DNA of 64,000 bases from Procambarus clarkii (lineage: Eukaryota; Arthropoda; Malacostraca; Decapoda; Cambaridae). The stretch covers positions 31,622,432-31,686,431 of the forward strand of contig NC_091215.1 of assembly GCF_040958095.1 (NCBI RefSeq). The letters are read 5' to 3'. The position numbers and the translations under genes are program-made. Shown one piece after another: positions 18,366 to 64,000 of the stretch; position 1 is the stretch's first letter, and every line of letters begins with the position of its first letter. The notes beneath the pieces were generated by a model. It was not told the DNA's origin. It worked only from the letters and a program-made list of their open reading frames with translations, and did not search any database.

Positions 18366-19650
18366 GCACCCATCAAGAAAAAGTGTCCAGTTATAAGACC
18401 CTTTTCCCCCCTCCAAAGGAAATTCAACTAAACACTGTATAATAAAACATTGTCTTCTGATTGGCTCTCGGTAGCACTGATACTGCTAAGCTTAAAGATA
18501 GCACCAGGCCTCTAAGACTCACCTATACCGGGACCCAAGTAATGTAAGAGCTTGATTATTACGATTTCATTAACCTGAATATCCAAGTAATCCTAATTAT
18601 TTCACATTTGGGTTTTCACCTTTTTTTTTTCTTTTAAACCTAATTAAAAGGTTCTACCAAACGAAAAACTTGAATACATTGAAGGTCATGTAAGAAGGAC
18701 TTACCAACTCTAATAAAAAATTCTGGTTACTGAGAGTTCTGCCAAACAAAAACTCAAATAAATTAGAATTTTTTAATTTTTGTATTTTTCCAATAATAAA
18801 AAAAAAAATTGGCTAACTCAAATGGGGGTGAGGCCCCATGAGCACAGACAATACAGGTAAAAGGAGTCTGGGATTTAGAGATCTACCAAAAACAGGACAA
18901 CAACCAAAAATAAGCTTCTGCTTGCAAAAAGTATGGGGTGCATAATAAAGAAATATATTGAAAAAAAAAGGAAACCAAAACAAACTGTAGTCTGCCACAG
19001 GTGAACAACCCTAACTCTGGTGTGCCCAGCTGATGCCAGATGGCAATTAAGCTCATAAGAGAACCCTCACCAGCTGCCAGGACTGAACCTATTGCAACAT
19101 ATTCTGTATATTGAAATTGATTTGTCCTAAAAATAAAAAAACAAATACAAACTCATGCCAATAAAAATTTTTTTTTATTAAACTATACCGGCAGGATGGA
19201 AAAGGTTCTGTAGCAAGGTAGAAATAACAACAATTGTTTGTAAGGAAATTAAGAGGAAACAAACAGCACACATACAAGTTACTTAAACAAAATATCTACA
19301 CTACTATGACATCAAACCTGATTAATTTTGTGTGTACAGCTCTGGAATCATCTTATTTACCTGACACGAGTCAGGTATAAATATTCGAGATATTTTCACA
19401 AGTTGCAATTAGGCACACACGAAAAAAATGTGATACATAATTTTAAAATAGTCAACTCACTGAGAGGTTATCTAAAAACCACTTAAATAAATAATAAAAT
19501 TATTTTAAAACTTCACCAATTAATAAGTTTTTTACAGGATGTTACTTTTATGGAGAAACAATTTTGACAAATTAGCAAACTCTACTGAAAAATATTGAAT
19601 AACTTTTAATAAACCTTCTGCTAACTAGGTTACACAATGCTGTTACTTCA
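18366..19650. other. AT-rich stretch without recognised gene
   Basis: No coding signal. It includes poly-T/poly-A runs and a short match (about 18930-18950) to the dispersed repeat at 4395-4415. Confidence 0.55.
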
Positions 19651-20162
19651 AAAAACCAGCGTTGAATGTAATGAAACGCCATTTTCTGGGTGAATCCCAG
19701 AGGCTCCCCGGAGCTATCCATAGCTGATATACATACCTTAACTATTTGGCATCAGTCGATGTGGGTGGACTTCTAGGCCCACCAAGGACCACGAGCCAGA
19801 ACCTAGCACCCTCCCAGAGGTACGAGGAGCAATGGCCCATAGATATGTACGTGTCATTTGGAGCATTCTATATCTACCATCGACCGGGACAGGCACCCAA
19901 AAAGGTAAGTGCCACAAAATAAACCCCTATTCTGGTTAACAACGAAAATCAGCAAACGAGTGGACAGAACTCCCCAAAAGAAAAACGAATAAACAAGCCA
20001 GATGTCACACAAGCCGCGCCGTATGTCTGCACAGACACCCCCCCCCCTCGGAAGGGGAAAGGGGGAGCCCCAGACCCTTGTGCTGGCAATCCACACCCTA
20101 GTTCTGAGGCTGGATATCAAAAACGTCAAAATATGCAGACCGGAGGGAGGAAGGGAGGGTTG

Positions 20163-20254
20163 CCGGGGAGCCTCCGGGACTCGCCCAGAAAATGGCGTTT
20201 CATTACATTCAACGCTGGTTTTTTGGGGGGAACCCCTACAGCTTCCCAGAGCTA
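20163..20254. other. Internal complementary region (ICR) of DIRS copy A
   Basis: First part is the reverse complement of the left terminus (19656-19716), second part the reverse complement of the right terminus (about 23245-23279), fused head to tail. In DIRS-1 this block templates joining of the ends during circle formation. Confidence 0.85.
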
Positions 20255-20321
20255 CTTCACCAAAGACAGAAACAGTGGGACGCATCTGGGAGGTGGTCGG
20301 TGCTCACACCACAACACAAAG

Positions 20322-21110
20322 TCAAGACAACAGGCTGCAACAGTCAACCCTAGGCGACATAGGCCCAACGAGGCCCAGGAACAGACACGAGGGAGCACGC
20401 AGCCAGGACCCACCGCGATCGCCAACACAACCCTGTGCCCGAATGCCAGCCCAAGACATGCCACCAATGATGGCAGCAAGCACAGCAAACCTACAAACAT
20501 CAAGGGCATGGGAAGACACCGCAGTCTGGTTAGAAAGAAGGACTTAGCAGACAACCGGAGAGACCGAACCCAAGAACAGGAAGGGAAACCAGATCAATCC
20601 AAAGCGTAGCTCGGCCACAGAGGCCGTGGCGCGCAAGAACGGAGGAGAGCCGCAACCGGACACAAGAAGCACCCCGGCCAACCAACCAAGCAGCAACAAC
20701 CCCAGGGACCCCTCTGGAACTGAAGAGGCCACAACAAACCAAAGGGAATAGAGAAAAAGAGCATCCTGCTCCAGAGCAGGATGGCACAGGTGGAGCATGA
20801 GCAGGCCGGAGGGAAACAATGCCCGAGACAACTCGGGAATGGTGCAGAAGGAATAACAAAATTACTGGAGCAATCTGAAGCGGCTCCACCAGTGCCACAC
20901 GAGATAGGGTGACGTTATGCGGCCAGAAAACAGCCCTGAACTACCACAAGAGAAGGAAAAGACCATGACAACAAGGTTATCGCAGTTATCTATGAAGAGA
21001 TAAAGACCGCCAGAAAACCTCATACTGCCACCGAGACAAAGCAAACAGGAGGGACACATTCAAAAAGCCACCTGACCACCAAATAAAGGGTGATAGACAC
21101 TAGTCAAAAG
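20322..21110 (-). pseudogene. DIRS tyrosine recombinase, degenerate (copy A)
   Basis: The enzyme integrates the circular DNA copy of the element by site-specific-type recombination. N-terminal parts are recognisable in three frames (SVYHPLFGGQVAF near 21060, then SRWQYEV..., then VEPLQIA and SLRPAHAP near 20870-20800) and line up with the copy at 52.2 kb. The catalytic C-terminal end appears as LDVCRFAVLAAIIGGMSWAG near 20480-20420, equivalent to HDVRKFAALAAVFGNMSWSD in the copy at 48.5 kb; the HxxR box is damaged here. Several frameshifts make it non-functional. Confidence 0.65.
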
Positions 21111-21239
21111 TACCAGACAAGAATACTCAAGGAGAAGACCAAACCAGCCCCACCACGGACCAGACTGACCATGTAAAAGAGGCGGAGCCACGGGAAAACC
21201 CCTGGATGCAGACACCGAGCAAGCCGCACCAGAACCAAG

Positions 21240-22211
21240 GCAGTCAAAGAACGAAAAAGAACGCCTGCCAGGGAACAGGAACCCAAACCCGGCGAGCCAG
21301 GAAAGAACCAACCTGGCAAAGCAGAAACGCCTCATCCGGGAGGCACCCCCCCCCTCTGGGACCCCTGAAGGAACAATAAGCCTGATAACAGACAAGAAGC
21401 TGCTGCTTGCAGAAACTGCCAACCGCAACTCCGCAAACAGCAAGGGCAAAAAGAGCAGCGAAAAACCTAAGCGCCAAGGCCCAAGAAGAGGCCAACAAGG
21501 AGCTGAGCACCACGAGCCGAAACCTGAGATGCGAAGCGAAAAACAGTGACACCGCAACCCACAGGAGCAGCACCACCAGCCCCAACAGGGTAGAACGAAG
21601 CACCACGTCAGGGCCCCGAGGACGAGCCGTCCTCCATAGCCCCGGCCTCACAAGAAAAAGCCGGGGCAGCCAAAATAGCAGGAAGAGAGCAGGCCCACTG
21701 GAACTACGGCCTGAGGAACAGACTTGAATGCCCCCTATGCAACCCTGGAAGGGGTAAACCCCAAAACTGCCCGAGTCTCAAACCTCGAAATCCTGCCCTG
21801 ACCCCGAAGCCCTCAGACGCCACGGAGCCGGAAGCAGGAGGATTGGAGGGGACTGAATGAACCACAGCAGGGGAAGAACGAGGGGGCGCAGACTGAACCA
21901 GAGCCAACACAACCAACACCCCCAAGTCCAGGTCCCGAGAAGCAAAATGGGGCAGCCTCGGGGCATCCGGGGAAGCAACCAAAACTACACCTATCCAGCA
22001 ATGCACGAGCCGCCTGCACCTGAAGAATATCATCAACAGAGTGGGTGATCGGAGCCATAAACAAGCAACAAAGCTCGCAGGACTCAGGGTCAAATGTGTC
22101 ACCGACCCAACAGACAGCATGATGGAGGCAAAAACAATGAGCATCGCCCTGAGACAAGGGGACAGAGCAACCCTCAAACTCACACAATGCAAGAGGGGAC
22201 ACAGGGGTCAC
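21240..22211 (-). pseudogene. DIRS gag-like ORF with Cys/His cluster (copy A)
   Basis: The N-terminal part reads CEFEGCSVPLSQGD, then HCFCLHHAVCW and FDPESCELCC: a regular array of cysteines and histidines (C-x3-C, H-x-x-x-C-x-x-H-x-x-C, C-x-x-C) that fits a zinc-binding gag domain. The same cluster recurs at 36.7, 45.8, 47.4 and 57.0 kb. A Ser/Pro-rich middle and a C-terminal region with LGPWRLGFS and LLFAEL follow in shifted frames. DIRS gag is thought to package element RNA. The recombinase begins directly after the gag C-terminus, so the polymerase region between them has been lost. Confidence 0.6.
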
Positions 22212-23279
22212 ACCCAGTGGACCCGAGTGCCCCCCACGGGGATTCCCAGGGCCTCTAGACTGGGTCTGCTAAGGATTATCCCAGGCAGGGTACTGCTAAC
22301 CGGCACACCAAACTACCAGGCAAACTGCAAAAAGCTGAACTCACGGTACGTGTCCACTCACGAGGGCAAGGCAGAGGGTGCCACCACACAAACGATCCTA
22401 AGATGAGGGGAAGGAAGAACACAAGGCAGACCCCCCCCTATCAGGCAAAAACAAAAAGAAAAGAAAACCTCGCAAGAGGACAACATACCCAAAGAGAACA
22501 GAGCCGGCCGCTGTTAAAGGTGAAAACTAGCTACGCAGTACCCTGTGCCCCACCAGTGCAATAACTGCCACTTACCCCAAATCAAATAAGGGCGGAAAAC
22601 AACCCACACACTTGGGGCTGCCAAGTGCCAAGCAGCAAAAGGCCAACAGAGGTAGACCTAAGGTGACTTATGGAAGGGAGCCCCAAGCCCCAAGGGCGGT
22701 ACTTACAGAGCACTCAGGGAAGGTGACCCTAAACACATGCAGCCCGAGTACCTGAGAAATTACTTCCAACTTGCACGCCACTGTAAGAGCAGTACTGAAA
22801 CCAAAAACAGCACTGAGAGAAGACTGGAGTTGGAGCCACACAACTATGCGCGATCCCATCAGCCGAGGAACTGGGGTGTGGGTCGCTGGCACGAGGGGTC
22901 TGGGGCTCCCCCTTCCCGGGTAGGGGGGAGCTGTGCAGACATGTGGCGTGGCTCGTGTGATGTCTTGCTTTTTTGCTCGTTTTTCTTTTGGCGAGTTCTG
23001 TCCACTCTTTCCCAATTTTCGTTGTTAACCAGAATAGGGGTTTGTTTTGTGGTGCTTACCTTTCTGGGTGCCTGTCCCGGTCGATGGCAGATATATAATA
23101 CTTCAAATCACATGTGTATTTTTATGGGCCATTGCTCCTCGTGCCTCTGTGAGGGAGCCAGGTTCTGGCTCGTGGTCCCCGGTAGGCTGAACTCCACCCA
23201 CATCGACTGATGCTAAATAGTTAGGGTATCCATATCAGCCATGGACAGCTCCGGGGAGCTGTATGGGCTCCCCCAGAAA

Positions 23280-30905: not shown

Positions 30906-31250
30906 ACACACGCACAAACACACAAATTTATCTGGTACTGTATATTTCCTTGAATATGATTAATTTATTTATTAAATAGTAAGCTATATTTATTTTTGGA
31001 ACAGCATAGAACTAGTTGGAATGGTGACTAAGTTTACACTTCCCAGTGTCAATTAAACTTATACAATCTCATTCTTTTTCAATGCGTTTAACCATGTTAT
31101 AAAGTCGAAAATATTCGTTAAACAACAATATATATATTTTTGAGTGACTTTACCATATAAATATTTTATGCTCATTATCAGCAATCCAGGGGACACATTT
31201 TTGTCAATGCATTAGAAAGTAATAACCCATGAAACTGAACATCATAAAAA
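30906..31250. other. AT-rich stretch without recognised gene
   Basis: Nothing recognised. Confidence 0.6.
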
Positions 31251-31252
31251 AA

Positions 31253-32678
31253 ACCCAGAGTTGAATGTAATGAAACGCCATTTTCTTGGTGAGCCCCGGA
31301 GGCTTCCTGAAGCTATTCAAATTGATATGTGCTATATTAGTTTGGGGTCATCAGTGACAGGAGTCCTTTTGCCTATCAAGAACTATGCGCCAGAACCTGG
31401 TCCCCTCAGAGAGTTGCTGGGAGTAATGGGCTATGAGCACTTTATATTTAAAGTATGTCATAATATGTCATAAGTATTTGCACAAGGTAAGAATGGACTC
31501 GGAAAAAGTATCCATGGTACCACGGAGCCCACAGAGGGTTTCCAGGGCCAGTAGGGTAAATGAGCCTTACAAGAAGCCCAGGCGCTGGTGCCAGCTAAGC
31601 CGGTAGAATCCCTGTCTAATAGCAGGCAAACTGACTACCAGTAGCAGCCGTGAACCGTCGGGGGCAGCAGAGGAGGACCACCGACACCACCTAGGCTAGC
31701 CTAATAAGAGGCTAGGCAGACCTCCAGTGCCCACAAAAGATAAAAACAACAAACGGACACTAAAAGTCCCTGAAGAAACACAACAAGCAAACTAGCAGCC
31801 AGGGAGAAGCATTGGTCACTTAGTTGTAATAAGGCAGGCTGCCCCAGCTACAGTGCGTCCACACCCAGCCAATAACACTCCCCCACCCAGGGCAAGATGG
31901 AAAGCCCAAGACCCCTGAAGTATCCCAAGGATGAAGATTACTTCAAGTGATGAAGTCTCCTAGTGGGAAGTGATTCCCAAATGCCCCAGGTAAGATAACC
32001 CTGAAACTCAAGGGCAGTACTTACGGAGCACCTAGGGAAGTTCACCCTACGCATATGCTGATCCACATACAAGAAGAAACGTGGCCAACACCCAAACACA
32101 CTGCTGATACGGCCACACATGGCAAAATCCAGAACTTGAGGCCTGAGGTAACCAAAGTAAGCACATCTGTTCAAGAACTGGAGTGGTGAGCAGCCAACTC
32201 ACCCTCCCCTCCTACGGGGGAGAGGGGGAGCCAGGAGGGGGGAGGGGGGGGGGAAGTTAGCTCCCGAGGATGAGGTTAGCCTTTTTCTCGAGCCGGGAGG
32301 AAAATTAGCTCCCGGGGGCACCGGGAAGGGGTAATGCTAACAAGCAGAAGTGCTAGTTGCATGAAGGATTGCTTGTTGGGTTTCTTTTTTGGGGAGTTAT
32401 TTTGATCTTTTTGGATGTTGATTGCACAGGTTAACCAGATAGTGGTCTGTTTTGATTCGCCTACCTTTCTGGGTCCTTCCGCAGTCGATGGCAATTATGA
32501 CATACTTTAAATGTAAAATGCTCATACACCATTGCTCCCCGTGCCTCTCTGACGAGACCAGGTTCTGGTTTGTGGTTCCCGGTAGGCATAAGAACTCCTG
32601 TGACTGATGATCCCAAACTACTATAGCAAATATCAGTTCGGATAATTTCAAAGAGCCGACAGGGCTTCCCACAGAAAA
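31253..32678 (-). mobile_element. DIRS-derived compact element (copy C)
   Basis: Left end GAGTTGAATGTAATGAAACG at 31258, right end GGGCTTCCCACAGAAAA at about 32676. Opposed ITR arms (about 31310-31480 and 32465-32660) carry matching landmarks such as AGAACCTGGTCCCCTC against GACCAGGTTCTGG. The interior (31500-32440) is DIRS 5' region, with AGTACTTACGGAGCACCTAG matching 46410-46440. No gag, RT, recombinase or ICR is seen, so this is an internally deleted non-autonomous copy. Confidence 0.7.
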
Positions 32679-44402: not shown

Positions 44403-44594
44403 TTATGGGTTCACCGTGCTGTGAACCCGACGGAAGGACAGAGCCCACTGCCCCTGGCTTGCCTGATAAGCACTAGTTACATATCCCCAGACGAAAGACG
44501 AGGCGTCCGTGAACACATTGAGAGAGACCTCGGGTAGGCTTCGGGTTTTTGAGGGGACCCTAAAAACCCGAAATGGAAGCCGACGACGCAGCAA
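44403..44594 (-). pseudogene. DIRS RNase H N-terminal fragment (copy F)
   Basis: LNVFTDASSFVWGYVTSAYQ then GQWALSFRRVHSTVNP matches the RNase H domain of DIRS polyproteins (acidic TDAS motif and a GYV/GFV turn) and the copies at 54.2 and 53.0 kb. Cut off by the satellite array after about 60 residues. Confidence 0.7.
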
Positions 44595-44599
44595 CTGAC

Positions 44600-45909
44600 T
44601 GACCCACCCAGATGACCCAATGGAGTGAAGGGGAAGAAGTCTGCCCAGCCAGCCCTAGAACGGCCACCCCGGAGATGCAACAAATCCAACATGGGACGAC
44701 AACTTGACAAGGCCACCTGCAGAAACTGTGTGATGGCAGACTCTGCAAACAGCAATGGACAAAAAGGCAAGGGAAATCTATGAGCCAGGGCCCAAGTAGA
44801 TCCCAAGGAGAGAGGAATCCTTGGTGCAGAATGGTAGCAGCCTCTCGCCATTCGAGCGTGTGGGTCCGATAAAAACCATGCCACGCTCCCTGCTAAAAGA
44901 AAGGGCAGTGTGCAAGCCAAGAAGACTCTGGAACCTCATAACGCACCCAATACAGGAAGACAAGCCATACGCAAATGAGGACAGATCCATTACAGAGGCA
45001 AAATCCAGGACTCGCAAGAGGTAAGCAGCAAGAGCCTCCAAAACCCCCTTAGGCGGGATTCGAGAGGCAAAAAATCTCTGGAAAGAGGGAGCCAAGGAAC
45101 CCGGAACCTAACCCGAGGAGGAGCTGATCGCCAAATCAAACTCATACATAGAAGGGGGGGGGGTAAGAAAACCCCTCCCCCTGCAACAACAAACTCCACG
45201 ACGAGGGCACTAAAACCCAAGCAGGATCATAGGGGCCCCAAACATCCCAGGGCGACTCCTCCCCAGCCCCAGAAGCCTCCTCACCAGGCCCTGGGGGCAG
45301 AGCCATCCTCCACCCCTGAAGAAAAGGCAGAGTCCAGAGGAAAGGCAGCAAAGAAGGGGGGGGGGGGTTGCGGGTAAGACCCATAAGCCTTGGTAGGAGG
45401 AGCAGGCTTGAATGCCTCAATCTCCAATTTGAATGGGGCAGCCCCCGAAGCCGTTGAGTCTCCTCACCAACTAAACCCTGCCCCAACTCCGAAACCCCCA
45501 GACGTTTGGGAGCCGGGAGCAGAGCGTAAACCATCAACTGGGAAAGGACTTGTGGGCGTGGACAGAACCAAAGTCAAAGCGACTAATGCCCCCAAGTCTG
45601 GGTCCTTAAAACCAAAACAGGGCAGCCCCGGGGCATCCAAGCAGGCAACCAACCTAGCACGTTGCATTCTAGGTTAAAGTTTTTGCAATGCAGAAACTCC
45701 CTGAACTCTAATCTCAGTTACCGTAGCATGGGTACACAGGAGCACGAGCAGAGGACACGTCTCGCAAGACTCTGGGTCAAAGTTGCCGTTGACCCAACAG
45801 GCAGCATGACAGAGGCAAAACAGGTGACTGTCACCCTGAGACAAAGGCATAGTACAGTACAACCTTCAAACTCGCACAAAGCGAGGTGGGACTCGGAAGA
45901 CACATCCAT
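44600..45909 (-). pseudogene. DIRS gag remnant (copy F)
   Basis: ALCEFEGC in one frame continues as MPLSQGDSHLFCLCHAACWV and FDPESCETC in the next, so one frameshift splits the Cys/His cluster near 45830. A Pro-rich middle and a C-terminal block (TWALAHRFPLPFCPLLFAES near 44790) follow. RNase H begins about 100 bp later, showing that the RT domain was deleted. Confidence 0.6.
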
Positions 45910-47262
45910 CGGTCAACTAAGCCCCAGCAGGGTTTCCCAGGGCCCATAGGGGGTTTCCCAGCGCCCGTAAGGGTTTTACTTATGGGAAGCCCAGGCATGG
46001 TGCTGCTAAGCTGGTGGACCCTGAATATCAATAAAGAGGGAGATGGTCTATAAATTTGATCCCTGGGATGTGTACAATCACAGGGCTCTAGCAGAAGATC
46101 ACCAAAATACCCTAGGTGGATTAATAATCAAACAAGGCAGATCCCCCTCTAGGTGAAGCAAACAAAATTAAAAGAAAAGCCCTGCAAAAGAACAAAGCCA
46201 CCAGAAGGAACAGGAACAGCACTGCCGTGTAGGTAAGCGTGCAACGCAGCACCCTGTGCTCCAGTAACACCACCACTTCCTACTCAAGGCCAAACAAAGG
46301 CCACGAAACCCTAGCTGGCCCCAAGGGTGGGAAAGACACTGAGCAGCAAGAACCCCCTATGGAAGTGGAGTCCCGAAGGCTCTAGGAAAGGCAACCCTAA
46401 AACTCAAGGGTAGTACTTACAGGGTGCTTAGGGAAGGAAGCCCTAAGCGCATGCAGTCGCAGTACTCTGATGTTACTCCTGGCCACTGCACCACAAAGAG
46501 CAGAAAACACCACAAAAGCACAATATCTACTAAGAAATCAAGGCCAGAGTTGACAACCACCCCAGAGTGCATCAGTCTACGAACTGAAGTGCGAGTAGCT
46601 GGCACGGGGCTTCCAGTGCTACCTCCTCTCCCTCCCAGAAAGGGGAGGGATGCGTAGGCAAGCTGCATGGCGGCGGTGCATGACATCTGCTTATTTGCTT
46701 GTTTCCTTATATTTTTAGTGGAGTTTTGCCCCTCTGTTTGGTCTTTGGTTGCAATTTCTTACCAGGTGGGGTTTGTTTTATTATGCCTACCTTTCTGGGT
46801 GCCTAATCCTGGTCAATGGCAGACATGGAATGCTCCCAAACACATGGGGGTTTCCACTGCTCCCATTGCTCCATGTGCCTCTTTGAGGGAGCCAGATTCT
46901 GGCTTGTGGTCCCTGGTAGGTAGAACTCCAATTGACTGATGCCCCAGACTAATATTGCGTATATCAGTCTGATAGCTCCAAGGAGCCAGAGGGGCTCACC
47001 ACAGAAAGGATGGCGTTATCCCTCAAGAAGGCTGAGCTACACCCCACACAGACTTCCTTCAGATGTTTTAGAGCTGGAGTCAAGGGGAAAGGAACAGAAG
47101 CAGGGAAGGCATGTCTGCAAGGGAAATGAAGAGGAGGCACAGGCAGAACAAAGGTGGAATTCACCCACATCTCTAATTCTGAGTCCCTAAACACAATAGG
47201 GCCAACTAAGTGCCATTCAAATGAGCACAAAGCCACAAATGCTTAACATAGGCAAATCTAGC

Positions 47263-47557: not shown

Positions 47558-48203
47558 TAGGGGGGATGCTCACCAAACAATCAATCAATTCTAGCAGCTA
47601 CAAAATCAGAGCTGCACAGGGCAGCTATGGCATGCCATATGGACAAGTGTATAAACCCCCAGTGAACCCAAACCCAACCAAAAATGAATGCCCCAAAAAA
47701 CCAGCGTTGAATGTAATGAAACGCCATTTTCTGGGTGAGTCCCGGAGGCTCCCCGGAGCTATCCCAGGCTGATATGCTAATGTCAGACTTTGGCATCAGT
47801 CATGTGTATGGAGTTCTTAGGCCTACCGGGGACCACGGCCAGAACCGGGCCCCCTCAGAGAGGCAAGGGGAGCAATGGCCTATAGAAGCCCCCGTGTAGT
47901 TGGAAGCATTCTATGTCTGCCATCGACCGGAACAGGCACCCAGAAAGGTAAGCGCCCCAAAACAAACCCCTATTCTGGTTAAAATTGCTACCTAATACCG
48001 AACTAGTGGATAGAACTCCCCAACCGAAAACAAGCAAATTAGTGTGACGTCACACACTGCCGCGCCGCTGTCTGCGCAGCTCCCCCCTCCCCGGGAGGGG
48101 GAAGGGGGAGCCCCAGACCCCCCGCGCCGGCTACCCACACCTCAGTTCTTGAGGCTGGATGTCAAAAACGCGAAAAACCGCCGACCGGAGGGAGGGAGGG
48201 ATG

Positions 48204-48295
48204 CCGGGGAGCCTCCGGGACTCACCCAGAAAATGGCGTTTCATTACATTCAACGCTGGTTTTCTGGGGGGAGCCCCGTCGGCTCCCCGGAGCTA
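48204..48295. other. Internal complementary region (ICR) of DIRS copy B
   Basis: 92 bp: complement of the left terminus (CACCCAGAAAATGGCGTTTC through AACGCTGG) directly followed by complement of the right terminus (TTTCTGGGGGGAGCCCCG through GGAGCTA). The matches to the actual ends of the element appear perfect or nearly so by eye. Confidence 0.9.
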
Positions 48296-48351
48296 ACTAC
48301 CCACAGACAGAAAAAGAGGGACTTACCCGGGAGGCGGTCGTCGCTCACCCC

Positions 48352-48822
48352 TCAACTCGAAGCCGAGACAACTGGCTGCAACCGCCGACCCAAAGCAACA
48401 CAGGCCCGACGAGGGCCAGGGACATTCACAAGGTAACGAGCAGCCAGGACCCTGTTCGACCGCCAAAATCCCCGCGCCCAAATATCAGACCAAGACATAT
48501 TCCCAAAGACGGCAGCAAGAGCCGCGAACTTACGAACGTCATGGGCACGGGGATAGACCGCAGGCTGGCTAGACCTAATAACCCTGCGGACGACCTGAGA
48601 GACCCGAACCCGCGAACAGGGAAGAAGGGAAACCGGATCAACCCACAGCGCGTCCCCGGACACAGAAGCTGTGGCGCGCAAATAACGGCGAAGCGCCGCT
48701 AATAGCATCAGCCTCAAGAACTGAGGTGTGGGTAGCCGGCGCGGGGGGTCTGGGGCTCCCCCTTCCCCCTCCCGGGGAGGGGGGAGCTGCGCAGACAGCG
48801 GCGCGGCAGTGTGTGACGTCAC
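48352..48822 (-). pseudogene. Recombinase C-terminus fused in frame to the ITR (copy B)
   Basis: An open frame of 156 codons starts in the right ITR (GTG, no ATG) and crosses the deletion point near 48709 into recombinase sequence. It contains ALWVDPVSLLPCSRVRVSQV, PRAHDVRKFAALAAVFGNMS and RGFWRSNRVLAARYLVNVPG. The HDVR box, the second-box W-R-S and the candidate catalytic Tyr (ARYLVNV) are intact. The N-terminal two thirds of the enzyme are missing, so activity is unlikely. Confidence 0.7.
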
Positions 48823-50554
48823 ACTAATTTGCTTGTTTTCGGTTGGGGAGTTCTATCCACTAGTTCGGTATTAGGTAGCAATTTTAACCAGAATAGGGGT
48901 TTGTTTTGGGGCGCTTACCTTTCTGGGTGCCTGTTCCGGTCGATGGCAGACATAGAATGCTTCCAACTACACGGGGGCTTCTATAGGCCATTGCTCCCCT
49001 TGCCTCTCTGAGGGGGCCCGGTTCTGGCCGTGGTCCCCGGTAGGCCTAAGAACTCCATACACATGACTGATGCCAAAGTCTGACATTAGCATATCAGCCT
49101 GGGATAGCTCCGGGGAGCCGACGGGGCTCCCCCCAGAAATGAATGAATTTAAGCCCTATGGGCTTAAATAGAGGTGCCAAAGACTCTTGAAATACCCGAA
49201 GTAAGGTCTCCACTCTGGTGGACTAGCATTCGAAAGGGGTGAATGCCCGAACACACCAGAGAAGTAACTCTGTCAATGCAGGGGAAATGCTTCTGATGGC
49301 AACTTAGAAGCACTACAGTGGTGTACATAGCACTGCATCAACAACAGAATTGACTTTGGAGGGTTGGCAGTCTTGGGCTCTGGGCTGCCTAGTGGTGGTT
49401 ATCAGTACTAATGGGTTTAAAATAGTTTCGGTTATCGTTGTTTTGAATTGTTTCGAGAGCTGTTTGGCAGTTTCGAAGCTTTGTTTTCTGTGACCCTTGC
49501 AGTTGTCTGCAATGCTTTGCTGACTTTCTAGATGCTTTCCCAGTGGAGTCGTGGAATGTCACTTGCCCTCTGCGCCACTGTGAGAGGGAGAGGGGATGGG
49601 GGGAGGGGGTGCCAGGTTCTGGTCCTGGTACCTGGTAGCCAAACAAAACTTCTGAGACTGATGTAACCTAGTAGCTAGGAGCAATCTCAGTGAGAAAATA
49701 GCTTCAGGGATCCACTGAGGGGCTCTCCCAGAAATAAAGCATTAATTGTAATGAAATTGTCCTTTCTAGCTAGCACCTCAATAGCTTCGCTTAGCTTATG
49801 TCACACCGGCATGGTAAGAACATCATGAATAACCCAGCCTCCTGTTGATTAGCCCAATCCATGTAACAAAGCAAGGACCTCATAGGGATCATAGATGAAC
49901 CCACAACAATAGTGAATTGCCCACAAAAAAAATCCTTGCAAACACACAAAGTAACGGTCCCTATGATTCCCTTGTTACAATGTGTAATAAAGTTGGTAAA
50001 TCTTGTTTTAAAGTTTTTATGGCGTATTAGAACGTAGTTACAACGTGCTATATTGGTTGTTACAATTGTTAGAAGGTGTTAAACCTTGTTTGTACATTGT
50101 AGCAACGTCGTAGTTTCGTTGTGTGTTTGACGGAATAAGAGGCACATAACACCGAACTTCTCTGAGGAATGTTTGGCAACACCAAATCACCAAGCAAACT
50201 CTGAACAACCTAATTACCCACTAATATGATTACCCTCGACAAATACCAGGTGGCAGTCAAATCTGCCGAGATAGCCACTCCAGTTTCAAGCCCAAGTAAA
50301 CTCTGCTAACATGAGAAAGACTGGGAACGCACGATGATAATGGGGAGCTCCCAAGGTGTTGCCCAGAAAGAGGTGTTTCATTATATGCAATGCTTTATTT
50401 CTGGGCTTGTTTTTTATTTCTTTATTACTGTACTTCCTCCCCACGGTTCCTCAAAGATTCAATACCTTTACATTTGAAACTAGTCTCAGAAGGAGGAAAC
50501 AACAGAATTATGACAACAGAAAAAAAGTACATACATATGTGCTTTTTGTAAGCT

Positions 50555-50871: not shown

Positions 50872-51009
50872 TGTTGACCAAACCACACACTAGAAAATGA
50901 AGGGACAACAACGTTTCAGTCCGTCCTGGACACAATCAACTTGAGAATGGTCCAGGACAGACCGAAACGTCGTCGTCTCTTCCCTTTCTAGTGTGTGGTT
51001 TGGTCAACA
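50872..51009. repeat. 138-bp near-perfect palindromic repeat
   Basis: Left arm starts TGTTGACCAAACCACACACT and right arm ends AGTGTGTGGTTTGGTCAACA; the arms pair over almost 65 bp each with few mismatches around a short centre near 50940. The flanking GAGTCACAATAACGTGGCAG and the arms recur singly at 1300-1395 and 25805-25910. Confidence 0.85.
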
Positions 51010-51789: not shown

Positions 51790-52288
51790 AATAAGGAAAG
51801 TTTCCAGAAGCAACATCTTGCTGATGTCAACAGAAACAGAGCCTTGGAAAAACAATCTTGAACCGAAGGGGCCACAACAAACTGAGGAGGAGAGAGAAAA
51901 GAGAACACCCGGTCCAAGGACCAAGATGGCTCAGGCAGGTGCATGACAAGGCCGGAGGTGAAACAAAGCACGAGAAAGCATATGGAACAGGGTGGAAGTG
52001 ACATCCACCCCGGAAGCAAACTGGAGCGGCTCCGCTCTGCCAATGCCGTATGATAAGAAGCGACAGTATTCAGCATAAGATGATCGTCCTGAAATAGCCA
52101 AGAAAGAAAGGACAGGACAACCCGAACAGAAACAGAAGAAACCTACGAAGAGAGAGGAAATGGCAAAAGGAACGGCAAGAGACATCATACTGTCGCCGAG
52201 ACGAAAACCGCAGGTGGGACACCATGAATGAAGCCACCTTATCACCATATAAGTGGTGATACACACACGTGTCAAAAAGACCAGACAT
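51790..52288 (-). pseudogene. DIRS recombinase N-terminal and central part (copy G)
   Basis: In successive frames: VYHHLYGDKVASFMVSHLRF and SSRRQYDVSCRSFCHFLSLR (SAM-like N-terminal domain), then AEPLQFASGVDVTSTLFHML and LPEPSWSLDRVFSFLS, then APSVQDCFSKALFLLTSA (start of the catalytic domain). The SINE lies at its broken end. At least two frameshifts. Confidence 0.7.
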
Positions 52289-52565
52289 AAAGAGTAGAGG
52301 AGTAGATCAAACCAGCCAGGTATTGGATCGGCCTAATCTGCTGGAAGAGGCAGAGCTGCGGAAAATGCCCTGGGTACAGACACCGAGCAAGCAGCGCTTG
52401 ACACCAAGGCTGGGCCGGCCACCAAGAAGCAACAAGGAGAACACCCCAAACAATAGGATTCCAACCGAGCCAGAACCCGAAGCAACAGCTGGACCAGGTG
52501 GAAGAGGTACAGGTAATCCCAGAGAACCATCAGATGAGCCACTTGAAGCGACCAGCCCCAAAGTG

Positions 52566-52695
52566 CCAAAATAAGATATTTTATTCATGTAAAGGTACAT
52601 ACATTAAAAATGAGTTACAAACATAATGTCAAATTAATATATAGAGCTAGTACATACAATGCCTGAAACCACTAATACGCAGAGCATTTTGCCCA
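52566..52695 (-). repeat. Dispersed repeat, copy 3
   Basis: TTTATTCATGTAAAGGTACA and GAGCTAGTACATACAATGCC match 24498-24610. Inserted in the DIRS copy G linker. Confidence 0.65.
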
Positions 52696-52696
52696 A

Positions 52697-52785
52697 AATG
52701 GGGTTGCCTTTCAGGGTTGCCTTTCGGGTTGCCTTTTGGGCAACCCATTGCCCGAAAGAGGTTGCCTTTCGGGCAACCAAGGACC
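52697..52785. repeat. GGTTGCC/GGCAACC clustered inverted repeats
   Basis: Four direct copies of GGTTGCCTTTYGGG alternate with GGGCAACC, giving several overlapping hairpins such as GGTTGCCTTTCGGGCAACC. It lies at the junction between the dispersed repeat and DIRS RNase H2. Confidence 0.8.
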
Positions 52786-52869
52786 GAAGAGACCCCCCAT
52801 GGGTCAGACAATGAACCATAGGGGTGCAGTCTGAATGGAGCCTGATCGTAGAGCCCCAAGCAAGCCAAA

Positions 52870-53224
52870 TCCGCCTTGGCGAAAGAGACACAGCCGCGAA
52901 CTTCCGCACCGTGCTATGAGCCCGATGGAAAGACGGAGCCCACCGCCCCAGCCGGGCTCAGCGAGCACCGGTCACAAAGCCTCAACTGAGGGATGGCGCA
53001 TCCATGTAGACATCAAGCGAGGGCTCCGGAAGGTGCCAAGGCACCGAATCCAGAAAACCCAAAGAGGAAGCCGGCGAAACAGCAACTGACACAAGGTCTA
53101 TGAGGCACGTATCCAGCGGTCGCGAGAGAGGCAAAAGGGATGGCCCCGAAAGAACCAGAACAGGTGCCAAAGCCAGACCCGATCCAGCAGGTAAATCAGC
53201 ACGGCCAAGTGCAGGCTCCTGCAC
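52870..53224 (-). pseudogene. DIRS RNase H, second copy (copy G)
   Basis: LVSVAVSPASSLGFLDSVPW and HLPEPSLDVYMDAPSLS align with the upstream RNase H (FLGFVPWCLPEPLLDVFTDR). The acidic TDAS position reads YMDAPS. Continuation to about 52870 in another frame (SGSPLRLH-type end). Frameshifted. Confidence 0.6.
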
Positions 53225-53479
53225 AACAGCTCACGCAACTGCCAAGGGACCTGGAACCCGGGACCCTCCTCAAGAACAGCAGAAGGTGGTACTGCAGCCG
53301 CAGCCATGACTCAGGAGGGAGAGACATGGGCACAGTCCAAAAGTCCCAAACAAGGCTCATCCTAGTCTGAACCTGGGACGGAAAAAATACAACTTCACCA
53401 GTTCACGAGGAACCCGAGCTGGGAAAGAACCACACCCCTGGCGAGTAGACAAACAGACTAACTGGGAGCCCACACCAAT

Positions 53480-53863
53480 CAGTCGTTGAGGTAGGCCAAA
53501 ACTCGAATACCTAGCAGATGTCGAAGGGCCACCACAACCCAGGAAAGATGCTTGAAAATGCTAGGTGCCAGATTCAAGCCAAAAGGAAGGTAAAGAAAGT
53601 GGTAAGCTTGTCGCCCCACCATGCAACCAAACCAGTCCCGGAACCCCGGATGAATTGGGACATTCTAAGATGCGTTCCAGAGGTCCAGGGAGACCAACCA
53701 ACAACCTGGCTCCTAAAGAAGCTGGACCTGGGACAGAGAGGTCACCCAAAAGGAGGGGGCAAGGAATCCAGTGGTTCAGACAAGACAAATCCAGAATTAA
53801 CCGAAGTCCCGCACAGTCCCATTTCAGCATTGGAAACAAGCGGGAACCCACTTGAGGGACAAG
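53480..53863 (-). pseudogene. DIRS reverse transcriptase, second copy (copy G)
   Basis: WDCAGLRLILDLSCLNHWIP is the N-terminal RT motif, and a shifted frame near 53500 gives LGIRVLAYLND followed by a stop where the upstream copy has LAYLDDWLV. The catalytic Asp pair is therefore changed to Asn-Asp. Preceded by EWVHLGVVETTL, which is also found before RT1 (MWVHLDVIVPP), so this unit is a duplicate. Confidence 0.7.
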
Positions 53864-54075
53864 GTCGTTTCAACCACACCCAGGTGCACCCACTCCAAGA
53901 TGACTCGACAGAGGTGCAGGGCAAAAAGCCTGCCCCACCAGCCCCGAGACATGAAACGCACAGCCAGCCAAACCCAGAGGATCCAGCTGACGAGCCACTC
54001 GAAGGGACCAACCCCAAAAGTCGAGGACCTAAGAGAATCCCCGTGGTTCCGGCAATGAACCAATGAAAAACAGTT

Positions 54076-54360
54076 CTAATGGAGCCGGATGGGAGAGCCC
54101 CGAGTGACCTGAACCCTCCGAAGTGCAAACCATACAGCCACGAACTCCTGAACCGTGCTGTGAGCCCGACGAATGGACGGATTCCACCATCCCCGGCCGG
54201 CTTGATGAGCACTGGCCACAAAGCCCCAGCCAAGAGATGACCTGTCCGTGAACACATCGAGCAAAGGCTCGGGGAGGCACCAAGGCACGAAACCCAAAAA
54301 CCCCAAAGAGGAAGCCAGTGATGCAGCACCAACACAAGATCCCCCAGAGGATGAACCCAA
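54076..54360 (-). pseudogene. DIRS RNase H, first copy (copy G)
   Basis: The domain removes RNA from the RNA-DNA hybrid. LLDVFTDRSSLGWGFVASAH, GRGWWNPSIRRAHSTVQEFV and AVWFALRRVQV follow the family order (TDxSxxGWG, xxWN/S, hinge, E-F-x-A-V, AL). TDAS is changed to TDRS. It is open over 95 codons in the same strand as RT1. Confidence 0.8.
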
Positions 54361-54718
54361 CGATTGGAAGAGAGGCGGAAGGGGAGTCCCCGAAGGAACC
54401 GAACAGATGCCAAAGCCAAACCCGACCTGACGGGCAGACCAGCACTGCGTAGTTCAGACTCCCACACAACTACTCGAGCAGCCTCCGAGTGACCCAGGAC
54501 CCCCCCCTCATAAGCTGCCGAAGGCGGGACCACAGCCACAGCAACGCTTCTAGAGGGAAAGACAAAGAGGCGGTCCAAGAGTCCTAAACAAGACCCAGCC
54601 AGGACCGAACCCAGGATGGAACCAGATGGAGTGGCCTCCAGATCACCAGCAATCCGAACCCTTGCAATCTCGAAAGAACCACACACTTGGCGAGCAGGCA
54701 AGCGGACCAACTGGGAGC

Positions 54719-55155
54719 CTACACCAGCCAGTCGTCGAGGTAGGCCAGAAACCGAATCCCGAGCAGACGCAGACAGGACACCAAGATCCGGTAAAGATGA
54801 GTAAATACACTAAGTGCCAATGACAAACTAGGGAAGGCAACAAAAGCGGCAAGCCTGAAGCCCCACCACCAACTGTGCCAGTCCCGGAACCCTGGAGAGA
54901 AATGTGCCAAGAAGTGATCCGGAGGTCTAGGGACACCATCCAGGCACCCGGCCTCAACAGTCTTCCGAAGAGTACAAAGGATCCAGGGAACAGACTGCAT
55001 AAGTGCAGAAGAACTGCAAGGCTCATGTCTGCACTAGAACAGGTGGGAACCTCAGAAGGATGGGGCGGAACGATCACATCCAAATGCACCCACATCAAGA
55101 TGACATGACGAAGTGCAGGGGAAGAAGCCCACCCCGCCAGCCCCGAACCCCCCAA
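54719..55155 (-). pseudogene. DIRS reverse transcriptase, first copy (copy G)
   Basis: Synthesises element DNA from RNA. Fragments in successive frames give LLRPGAWMVSLDLRITSWHI (motif with the first catalytic Asp, SLDL) and FTHLYRILVSCLRLLGIRFL ending in AYLDDWLV (second and third catalytic Asp; AYLDDWLV is the hallmark of DIRS-type RT). Frameshifts between these blocks break the gene. RNase H1 follows. Confidence 0.85.
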
Positions 55156-55267
55156 AGGGGGTAGAAGCTGCCCAATGCCACCAGAGGCACGGAAGTTAAC
55201 TACAAGCGAGAGCTAACAGAGCAAGCTGCTCCCCCCATTGCCCCATCAACAGCGAAGGGAACAGAAC

Positions 55268-55640
<373 letters not shown>

Positions 55641-55994
55641 ACAAAATGTATAAAAACATACATACATGCATGTAAATAAAATTGAAAAAATAAAATAAAG
55701 AAAAGAAAAGACAAACCACTGACCGGTGGGCAGAGAGCACCACACCGGCCAGATGAAGAAGGCACTAAGAGCACAAAAACAGCACCAAAAGGCCCACCTC
55801 GACAAAAACCCAAGGCCCGTGCACAACCACAACACGTGCCAAGACCCAAAAAGATCAGCCTGCATGCCACAGCAAGACTCCGGAACCCCAGAAGGCAGAA
55901 CCGGGTCACAAACGAGGTAACAAAAGCCCCCTGAACCAACAAAGGGGGCCCAAGAGGAAGACACCTCCGGAACGAAACAAAAGAACCCAAAGGA

Positions 55995-56062
55995 ACCCGG
56001 AATCGAACCTGGGGGAGCCCAAACTACCACATTTGCTGGTGGAATTACACCACAGCAGGGCA
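55995..56062 (-). repeat. tRNA-like SINE head or tRNA pseudogene
   Basis: Minus strand: GTGGTGTAATTCCACC (D-arm/A-box-like) and CCAGGTTCGATTCCGGG (T-arm, B box GGTTCGATTCC exact). The acceptor stem does not close and the T-stem has one mismatch, so a working tRNA is unlikely. Confidence 0.45.
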
Positions 56063-56299
56063 ATGCACAGCACCAAGACAGAACCCCAGGGAAACAGCCA
56101 AAACAGACCGAAAACCTGGGGACAAGGTGTGGGAGCATGCCTAAACAGATAGGAACACTGAGCCCAAACCCTAGGGCACAGACCCAAAACAGACAGAAAA
56201 CGCAAAAACCGGTGTAAAAGCCAACACCCAAGCGTTCCCAGAGGAACAGAAGACGGACATAAAACCCCAGAAAAGCAAAGAAATGGCAACTGGAGGCTA

Positions 56300-57083
56300 A
56301 AACCCCTGAAAGAAATGAAAAACTCACCTAAAATGCGAGCTCCCACACCCCGGCCTAGGTAAACAAACCAAAGTACCTCCATGGTGGCCAAGCAGGGAGT
56401 TATCAACAGAAAAGAAAATGGCCACCACACCAAGGAGCCGTGACCGACACGATAGAGCCGAAAACATGCCAGCAAATGTGGGAAGCAAGGAGACTAGAGG
56501 GACGAAAAACCCCGCCCAGAAGAAACGCAACAGAGGCCCCGGGGCAGAACTGTCCTCCACACCCTCTGCTCTTAAAGAAAAGGAAGAGTCCAGGAAGAAA
56601 GACAGCATAGAAAGGGCCGCTGGTAAGACCCAGAAGCCTTGGCAGGAGGAACAGGCTTGAAAACCTCCGTCCCCAACCCGACTGTGGCAGCCCCCGAAGC
56701 CGCCCGAATCTCGGCACCAACTACACCCCGCCCTGACCCCGAAACCCACAGACAGTCAGGAGCTGGGAACAGGGAGGGAAAGGGATGAACAGCACCTAAC
56801 CAAAACGGGGTGGCTCCGGGGCATCCGGGTGGAAAACCAACCTAGCATGTTGCAGCAACCTAAACCTAGCTTGCAACATGGATGCTGCCTGTACTCTGAA
56901 TAGTAAGGACATCAGAAGAGTACTGGAGAACGAGCAGAGAACACCTCTTGTAAGACTCCGGGTCAAGGTGTCAGTGACCCAAGAAGCAGCACGGTGGAGG
57001 TAAAAGTAGCGACCGTCACCCTGAGACAAGGGCATAGCAACCAACGAACCCTCACAAGACGGGATGGAACCCGAAAGACACAT
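56300..57083 (-). pseudogene. DIRS gag remnant (copy G)
   Basis: AMPLSQGDGRYFYLHRAASW then TRSLTRGVLCSF reproduces the gag Cys/His cluster in broken form (several Cys lost), followed by a region matching copy F DNA (CAGCCCCCGAAGCCG, CCTGACCCCGAAAC) and a C-terminal part to about 56300. Confidence 0.55.
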
Positions 57084-58172
57084 CTAATGGTCCACCGAGC
57101 CCTGACAGGGTTTTCCAGGGCCCATAGACTGACTGCTACAGAAAGCCCGAGCAAGGAGTTGCTAACCGGTTAACACCCAAGCTAACAAGGGGTAGATATA
57201 ACACTGAAAACCCCTGCGATGTGTACAATCACGCGACCTAGCAGAAGGCCACCAAACACTACCAGTGGAACTATAGCCAAACTAGGCAGACCCCCACCAG
57301 GCAAAGAAAATAAAAACAAACGAAAACCCTGCAAATGTACACCATCCCCAGAGGCAACAGGAGCCGGTCTCTGCGTAGGTGGCAGGCCGTGCAACACCTT
57401 GATGCCCTAACCAGCACAACACCAGTCACTACCCAAGGCCAAACAAGGGCCCCAAGCCCCAGCTGGCCCCAAGGGCGAGACAAATGCCGAGCAGCAAGAA
57501 CCTCTACAGGAATGGTTCTCGAACGCCCCAGGGAAGATAAGCTAGTCACGCAGGGGCAGTGCTCACAGGGGGCTTAGGGAAGGAAGCCCCTAAGTGCATG
57601 CAGCCCCGGTACTGATGAGGAACACCTGGCCACCGCACAACACAACACACAGCAGTGAACGCCACGAAGACAAACACCACCTAGGAAACTGAGGCCAGAG
57701 AAGCGTCTGTCCCGGTTGACATTAGCTTACGAACTGGTGCTAGGCAGCCGGCGCGGTGAGGTCTGGGGCCCCCCGTCCCCTTCTCGGGGCGGGGAGGACT
57801 GCGCGGACAAACGGTGCTGCAGTAAAGTGTGATGTTTGTTTGTTTGCTTGTTTCCTTGGGATTGTAGGGAGTTCCTACCTCTCTGTTCGTTTTTTTGTTT
57901 TAGTTTCTTACCATGTGGGGTTTGTTTTGTTATGCCTACCTTTCTGGGTGCCTAACTCCAGTTAATGGCAGATAAGGAAAAACCCCAACCACAAAGGGGT
58001 TTTCTAGGGCCATTGCTCCCTGAAGCCTCTCTGCTCCCTGAAGCCTCTCTGAAGGGGCCAGGTTCTGGCGCTGGTCCCTGGTAGGTCTGAACTTCATACC
58101 TAATGTTCTGGTCTAATACAACATACATTAGCCCAATAAGCTCCAAGGAGCCGTAGGGGCTCCCCACAGAAA

Positions 58173-61254: not shown

Positions 61255-62505
61255 ACTCCTTTTCTGGCTGGCCTCTATTGGCTGTTGGACATTCCTCCCT
61301 ACCCTGGGAGGTCGTGTGCTTCTTTCTGGCCATCTATTCCCCCAAGCTTTCTGGCTTGCAGTTGGGTCCCAATCTTGAGGCAGTTTATTTCCTTCTGGAA
61401 GTTATTTTTCCCAAGGTATCCTGCTTGTGGGGTACCTTAGGGTTCTCAATTAGACTAGGACTTTAGAGTACTGTATTTCTTTTTCGGATCTTTTCTTGCC
61501 CCTGGTGACCTTTGACATTCTGTCTGGTCTCATCTGGTTTGGTGTTCATTCAAGTGCCAACTGCCTTATGTCAACCGTTTCTTGGCTTCTGGGACTTTGG
61601 CCTGGAATTCCCAGATTCTTCTATGGTTGGTTCTACAGTATTCCAACTTCTGGTTGTCATTCTGCCTCTCCATGATGAGTTCGTTCGCTGTTTAAGCAAT
61701 AATTTTTATTACTTTGTACACAGCTGCTGTCTGCGCTAGGATTTGTTTTTTGTGATCTATCTGGATGTTGGTATCTTTCTGGTCCTTCAATTTTCCCTTG
61801 GCTACACAGTGCCTGTGTGATCCTTAAGTGTTTTGTTCACACCTAATGCTTCTCTGTTCTCATGCCATCATGTTGCCAGTTTTCTTATGTTACCTTTCAG
61901 AAAAGCCATCATTTCTGTGACAACATTGGGAGTAAGCTCTGGGAAGCAACTGAGGGGGGGAGGTCCTCCCAGAAATCCAGCTTTGAATGTAATGAAATGC
62001 ATTTTCTGGTGGGAACTCTGTAACGTCTTGTTCTTTCCATAATTCCTTCTTTCCCTTGGAGTATTTAGCGTAAAGTAATAGCAGCTTTTGAGCATGGTTA
62101 GCTGCTTACCAGAACCTTGGTTGACCTGGGCCACTATCTGGATGCCTCAAGATTAGAGGTGTTTGCCCACAGCAATGATCATTTGCCTTGTTTGACTCGG
62201 GACTTATTTCTTTCTTTCAAGTAATGCTTATATTGTGCTACCAAATCTTTCTGGTGGGCTTTTCACAGGTTTTGGTAGATCTCCAATTTCTTCATTACAA
62301 GTACCTCATAGTGTGTGCCAGATTCCAGTCCTGGCTGCCTTCATCTCAGAGAGAGAGCCAGAGTTTGGCCTTGATTATCAATATGTTATCAATAAGTCTT
62401 GGAGGTCTGGTGTAAATCTTGAGGTTCAGCTATACCAGCATGTAAGCACCAGTGAGCTACTAAGGGCCCACCCAAAAATACATTTCATTACATCCAGTGC
62501 TTGAG
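61255..62505 (+). mobile_element. DIRS-like 3' part in the opposite (plus) orientation
   Basis: At 61930-62000 a right-end string (GAGGTCCTCCCAGAAA) is joined to a left-end string (CCAGCTTTGAATGTAATGAA), the plus-strand form of the ICR. A decayed ITR follows and the element ends at AAATACATTTCATTACATCC (about 62480-62500). Upstream to 61255 the composition is DIRS-like, but the recombinase could not be aligned. Confidence 0.55.
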
Positions 62506-62797
62506 TTTCATTTACATTTTGAATATGACAACTGAAGTTCAATTTGCTGTCTGTATAGACCTAGAAATGTTTCATCTGTTTCATTTGCTCTCAATTTAAG
62601 CATTTTTTATTCTTATATCTATTAGGTTGTGATAATGCTAACAATGGTTAAAAATTGCACATGCATGGAATTTGGAAAATAACAGGAGTCCCCCATTCAT
62701 TTTCATTTTTATCATTGCCTCATATAATATACCAGAAATGTCGACTCTTTAGGATGGGTCAAGATGAATAGAATTAAAATATCAAATTAAGACACAC

Positions 62798-62922
62798 CTT
62801 GGGTACTTGAATCACAGTCTTCGTCGATGTATGGGGCAGCCACATGCTCTATCTGTACCACCTGTGGCACCTGCAGCAAGTCAGGCTCCTTTGCCTCTAA
62901 GGAATGGCGGGACGGCAGCGAG
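62798..62922 (-). CDS. Internal coding exon of an unidentified host gene
   Basis: On the minus strand a strong pyrimidine-rich acceptor (TTATCTTTGTCATCAG) precedes 125 nt of GC-richer open frame, ended by the donor AAG|GTGTGT at 62798/62797. It encodes SLPSRHSLEAKEPDLLQVPQ, then VVQIEHVAAPYIDEDCDSST and Q, acidic like the start of the downstream exon. It begins with the last base of a codon and ends after the first base of one, which the exon at 33877-34286 completes as Asp. The frame also stays open upstream through a hydrophobic stretch (IYFIVVIFVISS), so an alternative is a longer exon with a membrane segment, but no ATG is present there. Family not recognised. Confidence 0.55.
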
Positions 62923-63058
62923 CTGATGACAAAGATAACTACAATAAAGTAGATGGAAGAAAACTTAGTAGACACTATAAATATATAGTACAGTATAATA
63001 AAGTTAATAGCAAAGTTATGCAGACAATATAGAAATTTATTGTGTTAAAAATGCAAAA

Positions 63059-64000
63059 ATCCAGTATAGAATTAAATGAAATGCCAATTTCTAAGTGAGC
63101 CCTGGTGGATCCCTGAAGCTATCGAGCTGAGATGGTCCCAACTACTAGACTGCATCAGCTATGGAGACAAGTTCAGGTTATTAGGGACCAGAACCAGAAC
63201 CTGGCTTCCCTCACAGAGGTGCAGGAAGCAGGTGACACTCCTCCACCTTACAAGGCAAGGCATCCAGAAAGTGAACCAACAAAGATCACTGCTGGGCTCA
63301 ATCAGACGGAAGCCTCACAACATGCCGAATGAACTCGCCCAACAACGTAATGAATGACTGAAAATTTCTCAAAAACAACTGTGCACTCATGTGCCCCAAC
63401 CCCCTCCTACTCATTTTGGGACAGAGGGAATAGGAGTTTACACTGTTCACTGGCTCAAGCCCTCAGTTCTGAAGCAAATGCATGCAGAACAGCCCCAACT
63501 GATGAATTGGAAGGTAGGAAGGGGGGAGGATCAGAGAGCCACTGGGACTCACCCAGAAACTTGGCATTTCATTATACTTAACACTGGTTTTTGGAGTAAG
63601 TCCCTTGTGGCTTTTCCTGAAGCTAACTACCCACAGAGAAGAAAAACACAGTGACTCACCAAGGAGGAGGAGGAACCACAGGCAGGAAGCACAAAGACAA
63701 GATAGCAGGTCTAGCGACATGGCCCAGTGAAACACAAGGATGATGAGGCCTGGAACCATTAACCAAGTACCGGGTCATCAGTACCCTGTTTGAACACCAG
63801 AACCCCCATGCGAGAGTATCAACCCAGGACATAATGGTAAAAACTGCTGCAAGAGTGGAATACTTATGAACGTCATGGGTACAAGGGTAGATCGCAGCCT
63901 AGACTTGATGACACTGAGGACAGGCGAAGTATGAGCCTTGAAACAGGGAACCAAGGAAACAGGATTGACCCACAAAACATCCTTCATGACAGAATTGATT
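63059..64000 (-). mobile_element. DIRS-like copy, 3' part, continues beyond the window
   Basis: Left end CAGTATAGAATTAAATGAAA at 63062, left ITR to about 63480, ICR at about 63538-63632 (GGGACTCACCCAGAAACTTG, CATTTCATTATACTTAACAC, then CCTGAAGCTAACTACCCACA), then recombinase C-terminal sequence (63987-63778) that runs off the edge. KDVLWVNPVSLVPCFKAHTS aligns with GDALWVDPVSLLPCSRVRVS of copy B; the HxxR region is frameshifted. Confidence 0.75.

Follow-up and report, generated by a model that had tools for sequence, protein, structure and literature searches.

A 1.4-kb DIRS1-like element of Procambarus clarkii as the probable product of internal deletion in a very recently active family

The window analyzed here, a stretch of 64,000 nucleotides of the Procambarus clarkii genome (contig NC_091215.1), contains at 47701-49139 a DIRS1-like element of 1,439 bp. 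The element reads on the minus strand, which corrects the strand of the initial annotation, and the right end of the interval in window numbering is thus the left end of the element. We consider it probable that this copy derives, by internal deletion, from a DIRS1-like family that was active very recently, and that it was generated by a template switch and then inserted by the recombinase. Its features are given below, together with the numbering of C80, a full-size copy from the same genome.

47701-47727, minus strand: right extension (rE), the outermost right end, about 26 nt, ending GCTGG before the T-tract
47728-48157, minus strand: right inverted terminal repeat (ITR)
48204-48295, minus strand: internal complementary region (ICR), 92 nt
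48352-48699, minus strand: 3' remnant of the putative tyrosine-recombinase ORF (C80 5373-5720)
48700, minus strand: deletion junction, one base matching neither side, with ∼4.93 kb of C80 missing
48709-49139, minus strand: left ITR, starting TTTCTGG in element sense

The inverted repeats at 47728-48157 and 48709-49139 are 98.8% identical over 431 positions by blastn. The initial annotation held that the two ends differ only in their outermost ∼50 bp, and a global alignment bears this out: the ends are distinguished by the outer extension and by seven substitutions in columns 29-45, and the next difference appears only at the inner edge. The use of ITR identity as a measure of age, also put forward there, has to be given up: the differences between the ends are a fixed feature of the family and therefore do not date the window copy. 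The 92-nt block had been read as the complement of the joined ends, that is, as a DIRS1 ICR, and the alignment agrees. Positions 48204-48259 match one end at 56/56 nt (C80 6316-6371), a single T follows, and 48261-48295 match the other end at 35/35 nt, the whole being the complement of both ends joined via the T-tract, with overlap at a short circle-junction motif. A chance match can be eliminated because all 21 mapped rows described below carry the identical ICR, and the last 66 nt of the right end are likewise identical in 21/21. With the coding sense on the minus strand, the ICR lies toward the right end, as in DIRS1.

At the junction, 439 nt of left side (49139-48701) are followed by base 48700 and then by 999 nt of right side (48699-47701). 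The deletion point thus lies at 48700 and not near 48709, where it had been placed and where the inverted repeat has its inner edge. The copy lacks gag, reverse transcriptase (RT), and RNase H and keeps both ITRs and the ICR, as had been proposed. Most of the coding sequence is deleted, but the recombinase is not wholly gone: about its last 115 codons are left, including HDVR and RYL stretches that, read by eye, we take to be putative catalytic recombinase motifs.

When the element was used to search its own 4.03-Gb genome, 2256 candidate places were returned, 40 of which were scored. Three of these match end to end (the window copy, C10, and C76), and the other 37 match the last 999 bp at ∼100%. 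The mapped set consists of the window copy and 20 fetched of the 39 other scored places. These 21 rows count as 20 loci because C150 (L016) and C57 (L024) have identical 550-bp flanks on both sides, which marks a locus present twice in the assembly. Ten of the 20 mapped loci are full-size (6,358-6,371 bp) and ten are internally deleted, a proportion that is not a rate because the query favors copies with both ends close together. The deleted loci measure 1,439 (window), 1,445, 1,469, 1,533, 1,533, 2,101, 2,573, 3,358, 5,093, and 5,186 bp; C10 (1,445 bp) and C76 (1,469 bp) are 6 and 30 bp longer than the window copy. Fifteen fetched rows had shown only the 999-bp part at scoring, and they resolve into four deleted copies and 11 full-size ones (10 loci).

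Although near-identical copies are what the search selects, the family is clearly young. Relative to C80, the window copy is changed at 1/999 positions on the right side and at 0/435 on the left. Over these 1,434 positions, 14 of the 20 loci (C80 included) are without any difference from C80, the window copy, C10, C3, C85, and C51 carry one each, and C58 carries four; every difference is private to one copy.

Among the full-size copies, C80 (L018:686-7056) contains three long ORFs, of 602, 745, and 927 codons. The 745-codon frame matches RVT_1 (2.5e-17) and, under the Pfam cut-off in both cases, RT_RNaseH (0.0041, and 8e-4 on a part). The end part of the 927-codon frame gives weak recombinase signals, matching Phage_int_SAM_4, an integrase SAM-like profile, at 0.0025, under the cut-off, and a PHROG integrase profile at 2.3e-4. 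It also contains GGRVGEL, HDVR, and RYL, which by eye appear to be recombinase motifs; searches of PDB and NCBIfam with this frame gave no match. Neither Pfam nor NCBIfam gave a match to the 602-codon frame, and the profile search of C80 gave no match to the methyltransferase-like domain expected after RNase H. In 5/10 full-size loci (C165, C80, C74, C43, and C57=C150), all three long frames, which measure 615, 753, and 945 codons from stop to stop, are open, and these loci are therefore candidate autonomous partners as judged from their reading frames.

All 21 mapped rows start with TTTCTGG and end with GCTGG, and in 19 of them the right end is followed by at least six T. Comparison of flanks revealed two natural empty sites, for C74 and C53 only; no empty site of the window copy itself was found. 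In both cases, insertion took place without target duplication, within the ambiguity of the T-run. C74 interrupts DIRS sequence of the type found at window 44412-47007 and 51828-58172. For C53, the flank of C49 contains a related sequence in which the target is uninterrupted, and the C53 site has one T above the prediction for a simple exchange. Young copies lie in older DIRS sequence at three loci: at 2/20 (C43 and C57=C150) the new copy sits exactly on the right-end T-tract that ends the older copy, and at 1/20 it lies inside the older copy. Insertion at such T-tracts, as in C43 and C57, could build clusters of copies in the same orientation. Excerpts of PMC5633606 describe an insertion preference of Dictyostelium DIRS-1 for its own copies, which the 3/20 loci at or in older DIRS copies resemble.

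The architecture is that of DIRS1-like elements as presented in excerpts of PMC3266345 and PMC9210276: ITRs, a right extension, an ICR placed toward the right end, a left end that starts with TTT, insertion without target duplication (here the sister copies C74 and C53), a full size of ∼6 kb, and an ORF order of gag-like, RT-RNase H, and (here putative) recombinase with a long overlap. There are two differences. The ITRs here are 431 nt, compared with 66-316 bp in PMC3266345 and ∼120 bp in the Xenopus DIRS-like families of the PMC9210276 excerpts. The smallest Xenopus family in those excerpts is 4146 bp, whereas the window copy, which has neither gag nor RT nor RNase H and has lost most of the recombinase, measures 1.44 kb.

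The junctions of the deleted copies speak to how they arose. The ten deleted loci represent nine events because C92 and C3, both 1,533 bp long, share one junction between different flanks; C3 carries two differences that are absent from C92 (positions 465 and 6038). The number of events falls to eight if the window copy and C10 have a common ancestor. These two have an A at position 440, where the other 19 mapped rows have a G. The junctions of C10 and C76 differ from that of the window copy, which was found only in the window itself (21 rows mapped, of 40 scored places). Exact junction homology amounts to 8 nt in C53, 7 in C63, 3 in C76, 2 in C31, 1 in C92=C3, and 1 in C62. No such homology is present in the window copy, C10, and C49, where the joins instead contain 1, 2, and 4 bases, respectively, that match neither side. 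Random pairs of points in C80 show homology of ≥8 nt with P = 0.0004, ≥7 nt with P = 0.0011, and ≥3 nt with P = 0.074; because the last already arises that readily by chance, only two events, C53 and C63, are individually unusual.

The left breakpoints lie at 436-444, adjoining the ITR edge at 431, in 4/9 events (the window copy, C10, C76, and C62). This cluster is not made by the query, which would have matched copies with a more internal breakpoint just as well. The right breakpoints lie at 5240-5373 in 6/9 events, a cluster that may partly reflect the query. We considered whether a conserved cis signal resides in 5373-5776, upstream of the ICR, and rejected this on comparing C80 with an older copy in the window, copy A (19649-20720). 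Identity per 40 bp is 0.68-0.78 over 5380-5779, versus 0.97 for the ICR core and 1.00 for the right end. The right-breakpoint cluster is thus without support from conservation, since the retained stretch is no more conserved than its neighborhood. RNA splicing as an origin likewise found no support at four joins, those of the window copy, C10, C76, and C92, in which inspection by eye revealed no GT...AG pair.

The sequence of events that we propose starts from a full-size 6.37-kb RNA, which would be reverse-transcribed from its 3' end, such that the first parts copied would be the right end, the ICR, and the last part of the recombinase gene. The enzyme would then jump from ∼5373 to ∼439, immediately inward of the left ITR, with a few bases of imperfect homology and the addition of one untemplated base. 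Since the product would keep both ITRs and the ICR, the ICR could serve for completing and joining its ends, and the recombinase of a full-size copy would insert it at a T-tract without target duplication. Excerpts of PMC5633606 set out an ICR-templated replication model for Dictyostelium DIRS-1 and describe the model, in which ends are rebuilt on the ICR and a circle is inserted by the recombinase, as not fully proven. We infer the jump during reverse transcription, the help in trans, and the renewed movement of such copies.

Template switching is favored because of the junction homology, the extra bases, and the cluster of left breakpoints, which together fall short of proof. A near-homologous patch of 7-11 nt bears the 3'-side version in C92=C3, C62, and C31, which fits template switching because cDNA grows from the 3' end. 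As evidence of polarity this is weak: three of three would occur in 1 in 8 cases by chance, the pattern was defined post hoc, and in C53 a near-match upstream of the 8-nt patch bears the opposite, 5'-side version. Against template switching, exact homology is ≤2 nt in 6/9 events, and a microhomology deletion after insertion looks similar.

Similar joins would be expected if a full-size DIRS copy had inserted and its middle had been removed afterward, through replication slippage or microhomology-mediated repair, given that short homologies and small insertions also suit end-joining. Such decay would agree with 8/9 mapped deletion events being at a single locus each, and with the deletions in older window copies, one of them without a detectable ICR. 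We nevertheless regard it as unlikely. The ends and the ICR are intact in 10/10 deleted loci (among copies that the query favored for keeping the right part), a family nearly without point changes leaves little time for decay, the left breakpoints bunch at the ITR edge, and one junction, that of C92 and C3, is present at two loci.

This last observation also bears on a MITE-like non-autonomous family, in which a single master mini-element, amplified in trans, would have given rise to the window copy and its closest relatives. Besides the junction common to C92 and C3, the A at 440 in the window copy and C10, whose junctions differ by 6 bp, would be expected of such a family. Both ITRs lie within ∼2.1 kb of each other in only 6/40 scored places, though, with five different junctions among them, and no junction occurs at more than two of the 20 mapped loci, so that we judge an established family of this kind improbable, more so than decay. 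An assembly artefact, that is, a collapsed or misjoined full-size copy, is hardly credible: C150 and C57 do show at least one duplicated locus in the assembly, but the window copy has precise ends, its own flanks, and its own junction, and nine other deleted loci have different flanks.

Returning to template switching followed by insertion, there is the question raised by the initial annotation of whether a deleted DIRS can be mobile. It had proposed a MITE-like mobilization of the window element by full DIRS copies. The junction at two loci in C92 and C3 and the near-identical full-size copies speak for mobilization, but a multi-copy family of the window element itself does not emerge. The check suggested there, a search for the same deletion at several loci, gives one locus for the window junction and two for the C92/C3 junction (20 loci mapped, of 40 scored places). 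A single copy, or a deletion point differing in every copy, was to denote a one-off deletion; most mapped deletions count as one-off by this rule, with C92/C3 as the exception. In our reading, a one-off deletion more likely dates from before integration, with one event for each reverse transcription, than from decay afterward. Because C92 and C3 share a junction at unrelated loci, a deletion derivative has probably moved, with recurrence of the junction as a possible alternative; the pair gives limited support to mobilized derivatives. A broader suggestion, which we offer tentatively and with doubts that outweigh our confidence, is that DIRS elements continually shed mini-elements through RT jumps to a hotspot inside the left ITR and that some of these are re-mobilized in trans (C92/C3, perhaps the window copy and C10). 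If true, there would be a non-autonomous class of DIRS, with the left ITR and about the last 1.0 kb as its minimal mobile unit.

In a family too young for mutation to have obscured them, deletions that keep the ITRs and the ICR suggest that the needs in cis are a left ITR, followed by hardly any further sequence, and approximately the last 1.0 kb, with the caveat that the search favored copies that keep this last 1.0 kb. A minimal DIRS substrate thereby becomes directly testable, and the deletions point to a route by which a recombinase retrotransposon could breed non-autonomous parasites. Among other retrotransposons, TRIM and LARD elements, and among DNA transposons, MITEs have kept their ends and lost their coding sequence, with proteins presumably supplied in trans. 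The element described here is unlike these in that its ends are inverted and need an ICR template and a tyrosine recombinase, and in that the copies per junction number one or two among the mapped loci, not hundreds. The excerpts of PMC5633606 contain no mention of a trans-mobilized deletion derivative of Dictyostelium DIRS-1. Phrase searches of the open-access literature, Repbase not included, gave overviews of DIRS but no paper on non-autonomous or internally deleted DIRS or on a DIRS-like MITE, which does not imply absence from print.

The window contains further DIRS sequence. By their main matches, five copies of differing age lie in the same orientation (19649-23279, 31249-32677, 44412-47007, 47701-49139, and 51828-58172), and fragments of mixed orientation occupy 61964-63974. 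The copy at 19649-23279 (minus strand) is an older DIRS of 3.6 kb with several internal gaps relative to C80; it keeps C80 5300-6371, and its ICR and right-end cores are 95-98% alike to C80, compared with 71-78% for most of the rest. Element D, at 31249-32677 (minus strand), is an older, internally deleted DIRS of 1.43 kb with both ITRs (178 nt, 79%). We considered it as an older mini-element of the window type and rejected this: it represents a different kind of deletion because no ICR was detected in it and other internal parts are kept.

Three other features were also observed in the window. A 989-codon open frame at 15098-18064 (plus strand) matches Exo_endo_phos (2.6e-14) and RVT_1 (7.5e-32) and marks a retrotransposon of LINE type whose long frame is intact. 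A minisatellite with a 21-bp unit repeated ∼29 times occupies 6567-7187, and a 197-codon open frame that overlaps it has no Pfam match. Finally, 50881-51000 is a near-palindrome with 51-nt arms that are 86% complementary and lie 18 nt apart.
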